Positions 38,635 to 47,499 of a DNA stretch of 64,000 nt are shown piece by piece. The notes under the pieces are model-generated. The model saw only the letters and a list, made by a program, of their open reading frames with translations, ran no database searches and was not told the origin of the DNA. The stretch covers positions 186,001 to 250,000 of the forward strand of contig NZ_QENZ01000003.1 of assembly GCF_003096835.1 (NCBI RefSeq), read 5' to 3'. Made by a program: the position numbers and the translations under genes. The first letter of the stretch is position 1. The number at the start of each line of letters is the position of its first letter. This DNA is from Balneicella halophila. GTDB taxonomy: Bacteria; Bacteroidota; Bacteroidia; Bacteroidales; Balneicellaceae.

Positions 38635-38637
38635 TCA
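38565..38637. repeat. Nested inverted repeat at the end of the peptide-export cassette
   Basis: TGATAACTCAC (38565-38575) is an exact inverted repeat of GTGAGTTATCA (38627-38637), and inside it AGACAG (38585-38590) pairs with CTGTCT (38611-38616). The right arm contains the TGA stop of the HlyD-type gene. It could be a terminator, a mobile-element remnant or an integration boundary. Confidence 0.6.
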
Positions 38638-39315
38638 CATTAATAATTTTGAGAAGTATCTTAACACACTTTTTTCTTGCAATATAACTTTTCCTTTAAG
38701 CGAAGTAGCTATTATGGAGTGATAACTTATTTCAACTCGTACGTTGAATAAATTTGACCTTGTTGGTATAAGATAGATTTGGGAAATCTGTCCGTTAATT
38801 TGTTGTCCGAAATCGTCTAAAAGTTCAACCTTTTGCCCTTTATTTAGCATTGCTTTTTGTGAGGCATTCACTTCACATTCTCCATAAATGCTTGTTGCTA
38901 CTTGAGGAACGACCAAACAAAGTAAATCTCCTTTTTTCACCTTATCATTATTCTGTACATTCCAAATAAGTTTTCCCTCTGTAGGTGCTTTTATTGGTAA
39001 AAGTGTATCATTTTGTAATAATTTACCCACCACTTGTTCTGCTTTGACCATTTTAGGGAAACTGTCAATCAGCAAAATGCCGTTGGTAGAGGCGTGTATC
39101 TTTTCTATTGCAGGAACTCTTTGAATTGTTACCTCTATGGGTAAGGTCTTTTTGTAAGGAATAAATGCAGAAACACCTACCAAAATAAGTAATGCCAAAC
39201 CAATAATTAAAATCCCTTGACGAATGAGTAAAGAAGGAATTTGTCCCACGATATTACGCACTTTCTCACTACGTAACTCTATGCTTTTTTCTGTATGTTG
39301 CGTCTTATTATCCAT
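38635..39315 (-). CDS. HlyD-type periplasmic adaptor protein
   Basis: A 226-residue membrane-fusion protein with one N-terminal membrane segment (about residues 33-52, GILIIGLALLILVGVSAFIP) and a biotinyl/lipoyl-like hairpin. Visible are the LPIKAPTEGKLIWNV half with VKKGDLLCLV, a beta-barrel part, and a short C-terminus. It is short for the family and lacks the long coiled-coil hairpin, as is usual for Bacteroidota adaptors that work with C39-peptidase ABC exporters. The gene follows the exporter by 4 bases, so it is its likely partner. Confidence 0.85.
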   Translation of the reverse strand: MDNKTQHTEKSIELRSEKVRNIVGQIPSLLIRQGILIIGLALLILVGVSAFIPYKKTLPIEVTIQRVPAIEKIHASTNGILLIDSFPKMVKAEQVVGKLLQNDTLLPIKAPTEGKLIWNVQNNDKVKKGDLLCLVVPQVATSIYGECEVNASQKAMLNKGQKVELLDDFGQQINGQISQIYLIPTRSNLFNVRVEISYHSIIATSLKGKVILQEKSVLRYFSKLLM

Positions 39316-40162: not shown

Positions 40163-41524
40163 TTAGATAAACGACATTATTTGCTCTATGGGACTATTTA
40201 ATTGTCCGATAATGTACTGAATTGCCAGCATCATACCAAGCGTTAGGTTCCCATTAATTACAGCCGTGGCAGCCACTACGGTTATTAGAATGTTTTTGAG
40301 TTCATTAATGAGAATACTGCCTGCCTCTTGTGTTTGTTGTAAGGAGAGCGATTCCATATTCACATCGAAAAGGTCAGCCTGTACATCTTCCCATTCCCAA
40401 CGTTTACGTTGTTCACAACCTTGCAGTTTTATTTCCTGCATTCCGGTAATCATTTGATAAACCACGTTACGATTTATCCCTTGTTGCTCGAATAATTTAT
40501 AATCTAGCAAACGGCGTTTTTTCAAGAAAAACAGTATCCAAATTCCATACAGAACACTACCTATAAGGAAGATGCAGAAAATAAGTAAGTTGTAATAGAA
40601 CAATACCACACCAAAGACGATAAAAGTAAAAATGGAAAACAGCAAATTAAGGGTTTGTGCAGTAAGGAAGCGTTCTATTCTTCGGTGGTCTTCTATACGT
40701 TGAATAAGGTCGCCTGTCAATTTGGTATCAAAAAACTTCATCGGTAGTTTCATCAATTTAATAAAAAAGTCAGAAATCAATGAAATATTGATACGAGTGC
40801 TGATATGCAATAGTATCTTTCGGCGAATAAAGTCAATAGCAGTCCTGCTGAAAAGTAGCATCAATTGTGCGATTAATATCAACCAAATGAAACCGATGTC
40901 TTTTCCACTAATTCCGGTATCTACAATGGCTTGGGTAAGGAATGGGAAAATGAGTTGCAAAATACTGCCTATAAAAAGCCCCAAAATAAGCTGGGTAAAG
41001 TAACGTTTGTAACGCACAAGGTATTTCCATAGGAATTGTAAGCGTTTTTTTCCGTGTAACTCGTCGCCCTCTTGCTCATAAAATAGATGCGTAGGCTCTA
41101 AAAGCAGTGCTACTCCTTTTTCTTCTCCATTAGTTTGTGTGCTTATCCAATGTGAGCAAAATTCTTCTTTATTGTAGGTAATAAGTCCTTTGCCTGGGTC
41201 AGCAACATAAACGTTGTATTCTTTTCGAGTTTTCTTTACCTCATAAACGACTACAAAATGGTCTTGATTCCAATGAACAATGCAAGGTAAAGGTGCTTTT
41301 TCTACCAGCTTTTCAAAAGTAAGTCGTCCACCCACAGTACGAAAACCTATTTTTTCGGATGCTCGACTAATGCCCAGCAAGGAAACTCCATCACGCCCAA
41401 TAAAGGACTGTTGTCTTAATCCATCTAATGTATAATTTTTCCCATAGTGTTTGGCTATCATACATAGACAGGCAGGACCACAGTCCATTGCATCGGGTTG
41501 TTTTATGAGGGGAAAAGGTTTCAT
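40163..41524 (-). pseudogene. C39-peptidase ABC exporter, peptidase and membrane part (split by a stop codon)
   Basis: A 453-residue ORF with an N-terminal C39 peptidase domain: catalytic C15 in AMDCGPACLCM, H89 in WNQDHFVVVYEV and D109 in VADPGKG. Six transmembrane helices follow (about 165-440). The peptidase cleaves leader peptides after a Gly-Gly pair while the transporter exports the core. The ORF stops at TAA 40163 just where the intracellular helix before the ATPase should continue; the next codon gives QWQD, so the ancestral codon was probably CAA (Gln). Both halves might function as two chains. Confidence 0.88.
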
Positions 41525-41529
41525 AGTAA

Positions 41530-43869
41530 TTAAAATGTAGCTGCATCAGTGTCTTTATTTTCTAACTTTCGTTTCACATTGTATGATTTTCCTTTATGGA
41601 AATTCCAACTAAAGCCGAAAACAAACATTGTTTTGTTATCCCAAATTTTTGAGTCTGAAGTGTAAGCAACCAAACTTTTGTCCAAAGTTTCTGAGTGGTA
41701 TTTTGATGGCTGTCCTGCCCAATAAAGTCCCGAAGAAAAACTAAAGTTCTTGTAACGATAACGAGCCATAAAAAGGGAATGATTTTCATCATCATTTAAG
41801 TATGCTCCATTCAGTTCATCAGAAACAAAGGAATGACTGTAAGAAACAGATAAGTCTTTCCATTTGAATATTCCTTCCAAATATAATGGAGTGTACCAAT
41901 GTGAAATTTTGCCTACTAAATCACTATTGACAGACTGTTTTAATGCTTGGTAACTTCCTTTTACTGTAAAAACATTTGAGCCAAATGGCATAATGGCTCC
42001 ACTAATATACGCACCATAATAGTTGGCACTATTTGCATTTTCTTTAGTCAAAGTGATATAAGAATCATTCCTTTCATAACTAAAATACTGATTAATGGGA
42101 TTCTCTGTGTGTACATAAAGCACAGCTGTGCCTATATCAAAATATTTCCCATCAAAGGAATGCACCAATGCAATACTTGAGTTAATTTCTTTTTCTAACA
42201 TAGGATTTCCTTTGCTTACAATATCAGGAGTTAGAAGTTGTGCATTTTTACTTAAATCTGCAACAGAAGGCAAGTCTGTATCTCGTTCAGCAATCAAACG
42301 AAAAGTGTGGTTATTATTTAATGTATAACCTAACATTAATTGAGGTGTAAATACGAATTTATCGTATTCATTAGAAAAACTATTATTATGAATTAGTGTT
42401 CCTCCAAGACTCAAGCGATAAAGTAAATTATTCTTTTTACCTGTAAACTCACTATATAAGTATTGTTCGCTGTAACGAGAGTCATAATTATAATTTCCAA
42501 AAACATTAGAAATATCAGATTTTAACCAACTCGAAGTAATTTTATATCCTGCATTAAATTGACCAATTTCTGTATTTTTCGCATAGACAACTTCCCCAAT
42601 TAAAGATTTTTTACGATTATTTAAGCGCATAATATCCGTTAAACTTTCATTCATATTAGGAAGTTCAAACTCTCGGTTTTCGTTATCTACTTCCGTACGA
42701 AACATCGTTCCTACCACGTTCAGCGAAATATCGGAAGTTTCCGTTAGTTTTCGCCAGTAATAAATATCAACAACAGGGGTAATGATTTTTGTGTCATTAT
42801 TAAACTTTCCCGTATAATTTTGTTGAGTTGTTCCAAAATGATTGAAGATGTTTTTTGTACCATTCGAGAAAGAAGTCTTAAAGTTAGGACTTATTCCAAT
42901 TTGAAAAACGTATTTATCTTGTACTTGGTTGGTAAATTTTAATCCAATTTTATGATTCGTATAGCCAAAAGCATCTTTCTCAAGATAGTTACTTTCCCTA
43001 TCTTCATTATTTAGCGTGTATTTATACGTTTGTGTTTTCTCTCTATCATCATAATCCCGATAATTTACAGCATACTCCATCGTGAATTGATTATGTCCTT
43101 TGTTATATTTGAAATAGATATTATCATTTCCGAACCCTGTGGTAAATGCGTGAGAGACATCTATGCCACCACCATAACCATCATCAAGTGTTTTGGTTAT
43201 AATATTTATTACACTACCACTTTTTGCATATCGTGCCGGAGGAATATCATAATATTCTACTTTTAGCACTTTATCAGGAGGTAAGAGTTTTAATTCATTG
43301 TCCGTAGCACGTACTCCATTTATCAAAACTTGCATAGACCCGCCACGAATATCTTTCAATTTCCCTGATTGTCCATCAATGGTAAGTTGTGGCATTGTAA
43401 CCATTAAGTCTTTGGAATAACGTGCTGATTTTATTTCCTCTTGGGTAAATGTACGTACTGTTTTATCTACATATTGAGCAGTGCGAGAGCCTTCCACTAC
43501 TACTTCCGAAAGCATCTGTGCATCTTCTTCTAATTGAAAATTTCGCTTTAATGTATTTCCTACTGATGGTAATGAAATACGCGTTTCTTTCTTAATTGTT
43601 TTGTATCCAATACAAGACACTTCCAATAGATAGCGTCCCATTTTAAGATTTTCGAAGAGATAGTTTCCCTCAAAATCAGTAACTTCTCCTGTTACTACTT
43701 TTGTAGTATCCGCAAGGTCATACAAGGTAATATTAGCAAAAGGAACAGGAACTATTTTTTCATTTTCCTTCGTTGTTATTGTACCTTGTACTTTTACTTG
43801 TGCAAATATATTTGTAAGCAAAAAACAACAACATATTATCAATCCTATTTTTTGAATTAAATTCTTCAT
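41530..43869 (-). CDS. Outer-membrane beta-barrel receptor with carboxypeptidase-regulatory domain
   Basis: A 779-residue outer-membrane protein: signal peptide ending FAQ (about residue 24), CarboxypepD_reg-like domain (about 27-115, NITLYDLADTTKVVTGEV), plug-like region (about 120-230, with GSMQVLINGVRAT and LKVEYYDIPPARYAK), then a barrel of the OMP_b-brl type. It resembles TonB-dependent receptors. Position between the exporter (5 bases) and the plug-only gene (13 bases) suggests the outer-membrane step of peptide export, or uptake of a self-made peptide; this is inference. The C-terminal tail after the barrel is hydrophilic. Confidence 0.82.
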   Translation of the reverse strand: MKNLIQKIGLIICCCFLLTNIFAQVKVQGTITTKENEKIVPVPFANITLYDLADTTKVVTGEVTDFEGNYLFENLKMGRYLLEVSCIGYKTIKKETRISLPSVGNTLKRNFQLEEDAQMLSEVVVEGSRTAQYVDKTVRTFTQEEIKSARYSKDLMVTMPQLTIDGQSGKLKDIRGGSMQVLINGVRATDNELKLLPPDKVLKVEYYDIPPARYAKSGSVINIITKTLDDGYGGGIDVSHAFTTGFGNDNIYFKYNKGHNQFTMEYAVNYRDYDDREKTQTYKYTLNNEDRESNYLEKDAFGYTNHKIGLKFTNQVQDKYVFQIGISPNFKTSFSNGTKNIFNHFGTTQQNYTGKFNNDTKIITPVVDIYYWRKLTETSDISLNVVGTMFRTEVDNENREFELPNMNESLTDIMRLNNRKKSLIGEVVYAKNTEIGQFNAGYKITSSWLKSDISNVFGNYNYDSRYSEQYLYSEFTGKKNNLLYRLSLGGTLIHNNSFSNEYDKFVFTPQLMLGYTLNNNHTFRLIAERDTDLPSVADLSKNAQLLTPDIVSKGNPMLEKEINSSIALVHSFDGKYFDIGTAVLYVHTENPINQYFSYERNDSYITLTKENANSANYYGAYISGAIMPFGSNVFTVKGSYQALKQSVNSDLVGKISHWYTPLYLEGIFKWKDLSVSYSHSFVSDELNGAYLNDDENHSLFMARYRYKNFSFSSGLYWAGQPSKYHSETLDKSLVAYTSDSKIWDNKTMFVFGFSWNFHKGKSYNVKRKLENKDTDAATF

Positions 43870-43882
43870 ACAGTACCATTTT

Positions 43883-44611
43883 TTATTTATCCTGTTCTAT
43901 TTTCTTTATTGGAACTAATCGCCAACTTGGTTTTTCTGACCTATCACCTACTTTTAACATTATATTTAAAACTCCATCATATATAGGATTCTCTGTTTCT
44001 GAAACGTTAAAATATTCCATGTATTCTACTAAGTCTTTTGCTCGAAAATTTTTAATCTTTTCATAGGTCTGCATATCAGCTTCTCCTCCATTAAGCCACA
44101 ACTTCACAGAGCCACCATTCAAAGTGGTAAATTCGCCATCTTCTTCCTCAATCATTGGTAGTTGAAGTATCATTTGTTCTAAAAGAGTTTTTTTATTAAA
44201 ATCATAAGGCTTAAATTTTTGAGAAGAAACAGTTTGTTCGTTATAATTCTCTGGAACTTCCAATTTTGCATCTATATTGATATTGTATTTTTTTATGCGA
44301 CCATTATTTCGTGGTACTTTAAACCATTGCTCTTTAACATTTGGTGCATATACTTTTAAGATATACTCTTGCTCCACGTCAATATTTCTAATGATATATC
44401 GTCCTTTAGCTTCCGATAATCTTACGGCTAAAACATTCTCTGGATTTTCCACTTCACACAATTTCACTACTGCAAAAGGTACCATATGTTGCACTCCATT
44501 AGCATCTTCATAATAAGAATGCCCCATGTAATACAACTCGTCATTTTGTTGTGCATTCCCTATTATAATTACTGATATTAAAACTATTATTGTTAAAAGT
44601 GTTCTTTTCAT
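43883..44611 (-). CDS. Secreted plug-domain protein without a barrel
   Basis: A 242-residue protein with a signal peptide (about 1-20, ending NAQ). It has a carboxypeptidase-regulatory-like domain (about 35-115, YIIRNIDVEQEYILKVYAPN) and a region that resembles a TonB plug (LLEQMILQLPMIEEEDGEF, GGSVKLWLNGG, LVEYMEYFNVS) but then ends, with no barrel. It is located directly before the 779-residue receptor gene. Either it is a partner of that receptor, a stand-alone plug, or the remnant of a receptor gene duplicated and shortened. No catalytic motif is visible. Confidence 0.7.
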   Translation of the reverse strand: MKRTLLTIIVLISVIIIGNAQQNDELYYMGHSYYEDANGVQHMVPFAVVKLCEVENPENVLAVRLSEAKGRYIIRNIDVEQEYILKVYAPNVKEQWFKVPRNNGRIKKYNINIDAKLEVPENYNEQTVSSQKFKPYDFNKKTLLEQMILQLPMIEEEDGEFTTLNGGSVKLWLNGGEADMQTYEKIKNFRAKDLVEYMEYFNVSETENPIYDGVLNIMLKVGDRSEKPSWRLVPIKKIEQDK

Positions 44612-44626
44612 AACTTATTTATTTAT

Positions 44627-44824
44627 TTATAATTTTGATATTCTAGACAATACCATTTGATTATTAAAGTTCTGTATAATATAATCTGACACTGAAAAAT
44701 TTGAATCTAATGCACACCCTAGAGAATCTCCATTTTCAATCTTAGCTTGAGAGCAGAATCCTTTACAGGCTGGCAATAATTTGCATTCTCTGCTTTTCGA
44801 GTTTCCTTCTTCTTTGTTTCCATT
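44627..44824 (-). pseudogene. Remnant of a radical-SAM/SPASM maturase C-terminus
   Basis: A 65-residue open frame with no start codon, closed upstream by a TAA. It carries CKLLPACKGFCSQ, a C-x5-C-x3-C pattern, and a fourth cysteine after 12 residues. This is how the C-terminal SPASM cluster domain of peptide-modifying radical-SAM enzymes looks, although the first cysteine of the usual CxxC is Ser. An ATG in another frame (44823, METKKK) could be joined only by a one-base insertion. It sits where the maturase of a peptide system would be. The rest of the enzyme is absent. Confidence 0.55.
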
Positions 44825-44966: not shown

Positions 44967-45123
44967 TTAACTCTTCCTTATTCTATATTTTTTCCCATTT
45001 ATGTAAATGGTGATGTATTCTCCTTCTCCCTCATTTGAATATCCGCCTTTCACTGCATTCATTTCATTTACAGTTAACACTTCTACTAACCCATCACTCC
45101 ATTGCTTTTTTTTTTGCTTTCAT
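44967..45123 (-). pseudogene. Double-glycine leader peptide precursor, out of frame by an A10 tract
   Basis: Starting at the ATG at 45123, the frame runs MKAKKK through a run of ten A and hits TGA after nine codons. If one A is skipped, the frame continues as QWSDGLVEVLTVNEMNAVKGG, a leader ending in GG, then a 24-residue core with sequence YSNEGEGEY at its start and two beta-like strands around NGKK. The corrected product is 51 residues. It lies in the same operon orientation as the C39 exporter, which cuts after GG. Options are a frameshift mutation, phase variation, transcriptional slippage, or a sequencing error in the homopolymer. Confidence 0.75.
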
Positions 45124-45195
45124 TGTTTCTTTTTTTTGATTAAACTTAGTTATTAAACTGGGTTGAAGTTAAAAAGTATCTCTGAAAAAACTCTA

Positions 45196-45380
45196 ATAAG
45201 AAAATGAGGATTTGCTTTGCTTTTTTCAGATTGTCATTAGGAAAGTATGAGGATTTTGTTAGAAAACTTTTATGAATATCCTTTTATATAGCTGACGATG
45301 CTAAGTGTTTCTATGAGCCGGCTGAATTACCTTTAGTGGCATGGCAAATAAGCGTAATTTATTAGAAACAATGAGATTTT
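45196..45380. repeat. Three imperfect direct repeats, candidate response-regulator sites
   Basis: Copies at 45196-45214 (ATAAGAAAATGAGGATTTG), 45236-45257 (ATTAGGAAAGTATGAGGATTTT) and 45361-45380 (ATTAGAAACAATGAGATTTT) share AGAAA plus ATGAGRTTT. The last two are each followed by another TTAGAAA. Direct repeats of this kind are typical targets of OmpR-family regulators; binding is inferred. Confidence 0.45.
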
Positions 45381-45458
45381 TTATTAGAAAGATTTTTTGC
45401 AAACAATTAAATTTAAACGCTCTCTAAATAAAATCAGAGAAAAAAGTTCGTTTTTGAC

Positions 45459-45466
45459 TACTTTTG
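45459..45466 (+). promoter_or_regulatory. -7 promoter element of the histidine kinase gene
   Basis: TACTTTTG matches TAnnTTTG, 16 bases before the ATG at 45482, giving a very short leader. Confidence 0.55.
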
Positions 45467-45481
45467 TGAAAAAATAATTGG

Positions 45482-46834
45482 ATGCGTAAATTAATTCCCA
45501 TAGCGTTTTTAGTTTTGGCAATACTTGTTTTTTCACAAGCTTTGTGGGTATCTCAATTTATTAGGCAAGAAAGAACTAATTTCCAATCTTCGATAATAAA
45601 AGAACTAAGGCAAATAATTAATTTTCACGCAACGGAGAAGTTTGGACTAGAAGATTCAGAAAACCCTAATAAGCAAACTCTTACTTTTGAAGATGCTTCT
45701 CTAGACACCACTATAAATGACCAAGATGCTATTGCTGTTTACCATTTGGATACTAAAAATTATGGTCATCTCAAAAGTAATTTTTCAGAGTTAGTTAGTA
45801 ATGTTTTCGCCGACTTAGCACTATCACAACAGAAATTTCACTTGAAACAAGTAGATTCTCTTTTTCAGGAAAATTTTATCGATTTTGGTCAAATAGCAAG
45901 TTATAAAATGCTACTGTTAAAAAATGGAGAAGCATTTGATAGTATTTCTTATCAAAATTGGAACACAAATGATACCTTACTTATCAAAATTCCATTAGGC
46001 ACAGAAGGTACGTATTCTTTTGAGGGGAGTTTCCAAATCAAAAATTCGGCTTTTGTTAGAAACTTGATAACATCTATTGGAATTGCAGCTTTTGCTATCA
46101 TTTTAGTAGCGTTTTTTATCGGTTGGCAACTGATAGCACTGCAAAAAAGCAAACGGAAATTAGAATGGAAACAAAAGGTTGTTGCAGGAATCGTCCACGA
46201 CCTCAAATCGCCATTGGCTCACGTTTATACGGTCTTGGACTTCTTTTCACAAACCGAACAAAATGAGCTGAAAAAAGAACAACTAACTGTGGCGGGAAGT
46301 CGAGTGAAATTACTCACAGAAAAAATTGCCCATACGCTTTCCGTTTTTAAAGCACAAGACGGTAATATCACATTAAATATTGCTACGTATGCACTGCGTG
46401 AGAAATGTGTTGAATTGATAGAAGAATTGCAAAAGACCTATGCAAATAAAGAAATTACAACAGCTTTATCCATACCCGACAATCTACAACTAAAAGTTGA
46501 TGAATTGTATTTTGACTCCGTACTTAGAAACCTTATTGAAAATGCGATAAAATATTCATCTGAAAATGTACAGCTGAGTATTTCAGCGGAGATTGGCAAT
46601 AAAAAAATATATCTTCACATTGCAGACAACGGACAGGGTATTGCCCGAGAGGAGCAAAAAAAGGTTTTTAAAGAGTATTATCGTTCTAAAAATACAACAA
46701 GCAAAGGACACGGCATTGGTCTATCTTTTACTAAAATGATAGTGCAAAAACACAAAGGAATGATAACTTTGCATAGCGAATTAGGAAAAGGAAGTACCTT
46801 TACGCTTTGTTTCCCTAAAACAATCATTGTATGA
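45482..46834 (+). CDS. Sensor histidine kinase
   Basis: A 450-residue membrane kinase: one helix at residues 4-23, a periplasmic sensor part (about 24-190) with no recognised domain, a second helix (about 194-220), then the phospho-acceptor H239 in VHDLKSPLAHVYT and a HATPase with NLIENAIKYS, ADNGQGIAREEQ and SKGHGIGLSF. It overlaps the response regulator gene by 4 bases. Divergent placement next to the peptide cassette suggests it senses a signal controlling that operon, possibly the peptide itself; this is inference. Confidence 0.93.
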   Translation: MRKLIPIAFLVLAILVFSQALWVSQFIRQERTNFQSSIIKELRQIINFHATEKFGLEDSENPNKQTLTFEDASLDTTINDQDAIAVYHLDTKNYGHLKSNFSELVSNVFADLALSQQKFHLKQVDSLFQENFIDFGQIASYKMLLLKNGEAFDSISYQNWNTNDTLLIKIPLGTEGTYSFEGSFQIKNSAFVRNLITSIGIAAFAIILVAFFIGWQLIALQKSKRKLEWKQKVVAGIVHDLKSPLAHVYTVLDFFSQTEQNELKKEQLTVAGSRVKLLTEKIAHTLSVFKAQDGNITLNIATYALREKCVELIEELQKTYANKEITTALSIPDNLQLKVDELYFDSVLRNLIENAIKYSSENVQLSISAEIGNKKIYLHIADNGQGIAREEQKKVFKEYYRSKNTTSKGHGIGLSFTKMIVQKHKGMITLHSELGKGSTFTLCFPKTIIV

Positions 46835-47499
46835 TAGCACAACGAATTCTTTTGGTAGATGATGATACGGAATTAGGCAATTTTGTAAGTATGGCTCTTA
46901 CTTCTTTAGGTTATCAAGTCCATTTTCAAAATTCTTTATTAGGCGTAGAAAGCATCATTAGGGATTTTTCGCCGTCCATCATCTTATTTGATGTGGAAAT
47001 TGGTGCGGACAATGGTATTGAAAAAGCCGAAACAATTCTTAAACATTTTAAAAATATTCCTATTCTTTTTATTTCTTCCCACACCGATGCGCAAATAGTG
47101 GCTAAAGGCATTACAACTGGAGGGGTTGGCTATATCAGAAAACCTTTTAAAATCACAGAACTTGCCGCTTATATAAAAAGATTCGCATTAGACCCCAATA
47201 TTTTCAATCTCAGCCAATATAAACTCAATGCTAAGGACAGTACTTTGTTTTACAATGATAGTTTGATCAAAAAACTAAGCACTTTAGAATTTAAATTATT
47301 GCATCTACTTATTTTGAAGAAGAACACGATCGTTTCTAAAGAGCAAATCGCAACTACTCTTTGGGGTGGTGAATTAGATGAGGGCTATGAGGCAAGTATC
47401 AATAACCTTAATTCAAAACTTCGGGAACTGCTAAATAAAGATTCAAAAATTACCATTGAAACAATCCGGGGAAAAGGCTTTCGATTGATTTTTGAATAA
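46831..47499 (+). CDS. OmpR-family response regulator
   Basis: A 222-residue regulator with a receiver domain (D10, D11 in LLVDDDTEL, phosphorylated D54 in ILFDVEIG, and K104 in YIRKPFK) and a C-terminal winged-helix Trans_reg_C domain (LSTLEFKLLHLLI, ISNNLNSK-like INNLNSKLRELL, IRGKGFRLI). Its ATG overlaps the kinase TGA, so the two are co-translated. It is the best candidate to bind the repeats at 45196-45380. Confidence 0.95.
   Translation: MIAQRILLVDDDTELGNFVSMALTSLGYQVHFQNSLLGVESIIRDFSPSIILFDVEIGADNGIEKAETILKHFKNIPILFISSHTDAQIVAKGITTGGVGYIRKPFKITELAAYIKRFALDPNIFNLSQYKLNAKDSTLFYNDSLIKKLSTLEFKLLHLLILKKNTIVSKEQIATTLWGGELDEGYEASINNLNSKLRELLNKDSKITIETIRGKGFRLIFE

Follow-up and report, generated by a model that had tools for sequence, protein, structure and literature searches.

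A run of ten adenines on the minus strand of a 64,000-nucleotide stretch of the Balneicella halophila genome (the whole stretch analyzed, referred to here as the window) is best read as the site of a frameshifted, probably silenced double-glycine (GG) peptide gene. This gene belongs to an unnamed Bacteroidales family and lies divergently from a single histidine kinase/response regulator (HK-RR) pair. A probability of roughly 60% is assigned to this reading, and the most likely state of the locus is that of a peptide gene recently inactivated within a decaying cassette. The elements of the peptide locus are:

45121..45123, minus strand: ATG start codon of the peptide gene, a choice supported by the leader lengths of homologues
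45106..45115, minus strand: A10 tract (T10 on the plus strand), at which the peptide frame departs from that of the ATG
45094..45123, minus strand: nine-codon ORF from the ATG as assembled, MKAKKKAME and then TGA
45042..45119, minus strand: leader in the peptide frame, ending VNEMNAVKGG
44967..45041, minus strand: 24-residue core YSNEGEGEYITIYINGKKYRIRKS and stop codon, with the closest core (...EIYIYINGKRYRINK...) in genome G440

On the minus strand, the ATG (45123-45121) is followed by AAAGC and then by the ten A's (45115-45106), and this start, tract and nine-codon product are just as the first-pass annotation described them. The peptide frame (45119-44967) reads KQKKKQWSDGLVEVLTVNEMNAVKGG, then the core YSNEGEGEYITIYINGKKYRIRKS, then TAA; the leader and 24-residue core proposed for it are present, and intact homologues show that the gene is real. 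Past the tract, the three frames stay open for 3, 45, and 5 residues, and a slip in the opposite direction would yield no peptide because only one of the two non-ATG frames remains open (45 versus 5 residues). The tract is the sole A/T run of at least 9 in the window, where the next-longest homopolymer has 8, and is one of two A/T runs of at least 10 in 464 kb of the genome, the other being an A11. The core has no cysteine. An AlphaFold2 model of the peptide, built from the window's peptide frame with no repair, is hairpin-like, with a pLDDT of 58 that is too weak for use.

Judged by its relatives, the A10-frameshifted ORF is a genuine GG-leader peptide gene. A 64-aa ORF of Seramator thermalis (G229; L036/L056/L059) aligns with it across both leader and core (pairwise BLASTP E = 8e-9), and a two-row profile run against 101 Dysgonomonadaceae genomes recovered ORFs of similar size in G444, G454, G445, G468, and G440 (E 6.7e-17 to 1.5e-6), so that intact-frame homologues are present in six genomes of this family, Seramator thermalis included. 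A weaker seventh match in G433 (E 0.011) is backed by its neighboring genes. The GG is invariant in all eight aligned sequences, and the cores follow the type E-x-x-(I/V)-x-I-(D/N)-G-x-x-(Y)-x-(V/I)-x-(R/K), the window core being nearest to that of G440 (EIYIYINGKRYRINK, 46%). Most of the homologous peptides carry leaders of 24-30 residues; with the ATG at 45123 as its start, the window leader agrees with this range, which places the window gene one base out of register within a run of Lys codons. A short GG-leader ORF with conserved relatives, as expected of a C39-processed double-glycine precursor, is thus at hand.

The earlier remark that no family name exists for the core also stands: the window peptide scores 13.7 bits with the TIGR01847 leader model (cut-off 15.7) and 13.3 bits with TIGR04149 (cut-off 25), and Pfam offers no credible family. 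With the window peptide alone as query, only chance matches in long ORFs were found in 393 genomes of the order, and a class-wide profile search of 395 genomes added nothing further except one chance match. These sub-threshold NCBIfam and Pfam scores are what a chance ORF whose GG only resembles a leader would give, but such an ORF would not have syntenic, intact homologues in several genomes, on which ground this explanation was rejected with a negligible residual probability.

Across a divergent promoter region, the peptide gene faces a two-component system (TCS) that the first-pass annotation did not mention and that is the constant partner of the peptide:

45124..45481, no strand: divergent promoter region carrying repeats of the TTAGA type (TTRTTAGA at 45192 on the minus strand and at 45256, 45359, and 45381 on the plus strand)
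45482..46834, plus strand: histidine kinase, divergent from the peptide gene and its constant neighbor in relatives
46831..47499, plus strand: OmpR-type response regulator

The regulator has Response_reg and Trans_reg_C domains, and the kinase has HisKA/HATPase domains and one periplasmic sensor between two membrane spans read from its sequence. The divergent peptide/HK/RR order is found in the window and in all seven relatives. Identity to the relatives is 27-37% for the kinase and 31-49% for the regulator, with the window kinase closest to those of G229 and G444 (37% versus 27%). The general background of HK identity is near 27-28% (an unrelated pair in L047 gave 28-29%), so the HK-RR pairs of G440 and G433 owe their link to the window mostly to gene order and to the peptide itself. 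The stretch examined around the peptide/TCS locus of G445 and G468 contains no C39 ABC exporter, and the peptide and the TCS are therefore taken as the constant unit. A C39-VKOR-thioredoxin protein is instead encoded after the regulator in these two genomes (L129:9905-11455 and L130:9619-11025).

One exception to the pairing of peptide and TCS is a second peptide copy in Seramator thermalis, which has its own four-box promoter and no adjoining TCS. In L056/L036, outer-membrane barrel genes are twice trailed by truncated C39 N-terminal fragments, after which this second, intact copy follows; the arrangement shows signs of repeated cassette shuffling.

The third conserved component is a promoter element. 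In G229, G444, G445, and G468, the peptide gene is immediately preceded by TTAGA-N4-TTAGA-N6-TTAGA-N6-TTAGA, and G454 has the same element with one mismatch. This near-unique element is almost confined to peptide/TCS loci. Searching six whole genomes for this four-box pattern with up to two mismatches returned 10 sites, while a reversed control pattern returned none in the same genomes. Peptide genes account for six of the 10 sites, two of these six being both Seramator copies; two more precede the C39-VKOR-thioredoxin genes of G445 and G468, one precedes a Seramator TPR-protein gene near a MACPF-domain gene, and the last, with two mismatches, has no gene assigned. The window promoter region itself has no four-box match, but it retains diverged TTAGA repeats upstream of the peptide: four TTRTTAGA motifs occur in 358 bp, where shuffling across the window gives a mean expectation of about 0.06, and the repeat pair TTRTTAGAAA-N12-TTRTTAGAAA is found once in 464 kb, in this very region. 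The regulator presumably binds the TTAGA boxes. The C39-VKOR-thioredoxin gene of G445 and G468, which follows the regulator and has a four-box element of its own, may belong to the peptide/TCS regulon. In Seramator (L143:3805-8036), the four-box site lies before the TPR-protein gene, with the MACPF-domain protein gene two ORFs further on, and the TCS may accordingly control antibacterial genes.

On the minus strand, the peptide gene is followed by a cassette whose state bears on whether the peptide can still be matured and exported:

44627..44823, minus strand: deletion remnant in which the opening codons of another GG precursor (METKKK...) run into about 57 C-terminal residues of a radical-SAM/SPASM maturase
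43883..44611, minus strand: 242-aa conserved cassette protein with a signal-like N terminus
41530..43869, minus strand: outer-membrane beta-barrel protein (CarbopepD_reg and OMP_b-brl_3), 74% identical to that of L057 and 52% to that of Seramator
40163..41524, minus strand: C39 peptidase and transmembrane portion of the exporter, terminated at an in-frame TAA
39320..40129, minus strand: ATPase part of the exporter, as a separate ORF
38635..39315, minus strand: short HlyD-like adaptor, 226 aa

The C39 exporter to which the peptide had been matched is indeed located downstream, but it is not intact, being split by the TAA at 40165-40163. This codon replaces the Tyr codon of the closest relatives, and all 16 full-length relatives in the comparison lack a stop at the position. 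The interrupted exporter is the sole C39 peptidase of the genome, which leaves a double-glycine precursor of this kind with no intact C39 exporter. The stop sits in the linker between two complete domains, and the split exporter might still work. Both halves retain their conserved positions, the ATPase half after the stop shows neither relaxation nor excess change, and dN/dS relative to L057 is about 0.03 over the first 237 exporter codons (the C39 part). This low ratio and the lack of relaxation past the stop indicate that the lesions are recent or that the pieces are still in use.

A complete second precursor and maturase are present in L057, relative to which about 1.4 kb is missing from the window, and no further maturase copy was found in the Balneicella halophila genome. 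The cassette has been hit by three lesions of unrelated kinds, namely the A10 frameshift, the nonsense codon in the exporter, and the ~1.4 kb deletion. At the matching position, Seramator has a copy with independent lesions of its own, a stop and an indel.

Several further observations concern the cassette and its closest relative. L057 is an 8.1 kb contig of a MAG labelled Tenacibaculum, with 92% identity to the window genome over the C39 N-terminal part; although the closest exporter relative, it has no peptide of the window family. Its similarity could be explained by horizontal transfer, by misbinning, or by a mislabelled MAG, and the sampled order-mates of the window genome include Seramator (Bacteroidales). 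The HlyD-like adaptor is unusually short, with 226 aa in the window and 161-166 aa for its counterparts in G444 and G454, and has no room for the usual long hairpin, and a contig scan of genomes with this protein gave no matches. Plasmid matches to the outer-membrane protein were rejected as distant paralogues on unrelated elements.

The length of the tract in homologues, which had been proposed as a check, does differ. By direct count, G440 has an in-frame A8 at the same place in the leader and G229, G444, and G454 have A4 or less, while the leaders of G445, G468, and G433, read as protein only (MKKKS..., MEVF...), have room for a short A run at most. As the tract is not conserved among homologues, a conserved programmed slippage site is not supported. 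The same result, together with the breakage of the exporter and of the second precursor and maturase by lesions outside homopolymers, speaks against the dedicated phase or slippage switch that the first-pass annotation had seen in the A10 run, and dedicated phase variation was dropped as first choice in view of the non-conserved tract and the interrupted exporter.

A looser form of rescue, in which transcriptional slippage, or replication slippage between cells, restores the frame at A10 and a low or stochastic amount of peptide leaves through the split exporter, is unlikely on the whole, yet it has several points in its favor. In many bacteria, tracts of at least nine A are prone to slippage, which has been described as keeping genes alive (PMC1088944); in C. 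rodentium, a tssM gene with an A11 run is partly rescued by slippage (PMC4256274). The A8 of G440 belongs to the very relative with the closest core, and the exporter halves are conserved with no relaxation. The only other A/T run of at least 10 in 464 kb is the A11 of dnaX (G000:C3:35706-37508 = L095:15706-17508, minus strand), which is placed just past domain III, with each of the other two frames closing after 0-3 codons; the same tract-plus-stops arrangement serves gamma/tau in Thermus (PMC1088944). On this pattern, the dnaX A11 may be a programmed slippage site that yields a gamma-type product. The tract hints that A-tract slippage is routine in this genome, where it could keep the peptide expressed. 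Against such rescue stand the lack of tract conservation in the family, the exporter nonsense codon, and the deletion of another unit of the cassette.

The frameshift could also be a homopolymer error of sequencing or assembly in a gene that is intact, given that homopolymers are the commonest source of indel errors and that, the tract apart, the gene has a normal build and matches its homologues. The inactivation reading is also weakened in that the A10 and the exporter TAA were each seen once, in a single assembly of Balneicella halophila, the one genome of its genus and family that the analysis covered. The other long A/T runs in 464 kb are, however, mostly inside long intact ORFs, the dnaX A11 included, a mild sign that the assembly does not misread homopolymers in general. 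Neither the exporter stop nor the deletion is an error of this type, and correction of the tract would restore neither the exporter nor the deleted genes. An error at the tract is regarded as unlikely, and recent inactivation within a decaying cassette stays the most likely reading.

In the intact state, the TCS would use the TTAGA boxes to control the peptide, the leader would be removed, and the core would be exported by the C39 transporter. Once secreted, the core would either serve as a signal that the kinase detects or be a bacteriocin that the kinase regulates. In the window genome, the A tract of Lys codons would then have changed length and, with the exporter interrupted too, the peptide branch would be largely shut down, with a minority of in-frame messages perhaps still arising when RNA polymerase slips on A10. 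That the peptide is the sole constant neighbor of the TCS favors a role as signal; the absence of tight peptide-kinase coevolution across the eight loci (the window core is nearest to G440, the kinase to G229/G444) does not. A fuller scheme, a Bacteroidales GG pheromone module in which the divergent PhoR-type kinase senses the peptide, TTAGA boxes provide feedback, antagonism genes are controlled, and A-tract slippage sets stochastic production, is speculative and has a low probability.

GG-leader pheromones acting with two-component systems are best known from Gram-positive bacteria, and a limited literature search found no description of a GG-peptide/TCS module in Bacteroidota. The conserved peptide/two-component/TTAGA-box module, possibly a signalling system, is a more interesting result than the A10 lesion itself. 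It is a concrete, testable candidate with intact versions in Seramator thermalis, and the window offers a natural lesion in which to ask whether slippage on A tracts can preserve genes of this sort.

Among known systems, the pseudo pseudogenes with A9+ tracts (PMC1088944) and C. rodentium tssM (PMC4256274) share with the window a frameshift in a slippage-prone A tract, but here rescue is putative, the exporter is interrupted as well, and the tract is not conserved. The rSAM-modified GG peptides of Bacteroidales covered by TIGR04149 (PMC10352776) have similar surroundings, with rSAM and C39 exporter genes, whereas the window peptide falls below the model's cut-off and the maturase of the window belongs to the second precursor and is deleted. 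Bacteroidetocins are likewise GG-leader peptides of Bacteroidota with a C39 ABC exporter, and are defined by at least 2 Cys in the mature peptide, a cluster TM protein and, usually, a thiol oxidoreductase gene (PMC6671954). The window core lacks cysteine, no gene for a 5-TM protein or a thiol oxidoreductase is among the cassette genes examined, and a TCS is present at the window locus.

The closest parallel in layout is with the ComC/BlpC pheromones and their ComDE/BlpHR systems. In streptococci, ComDE and BlpHR consist of a multi-membrane-span HPK10 kinase and a LytTR regulator. The window system differs in being from a Gram-negative member of the Bacteroidales, in its divergent gene order, in its two-span kinase, which is not of the HPK10 type, and in its OmpR-type (Trans_reg_C) regulator in place of LytTR; its signalling role is putative. 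What the two have in common is that a GG-leader peptide gene adjoins an HK-RR pair and that a C39 exporter is often close by, and this adjacency of peptide and HK-RR holds in the window and in all seven of its relatives.
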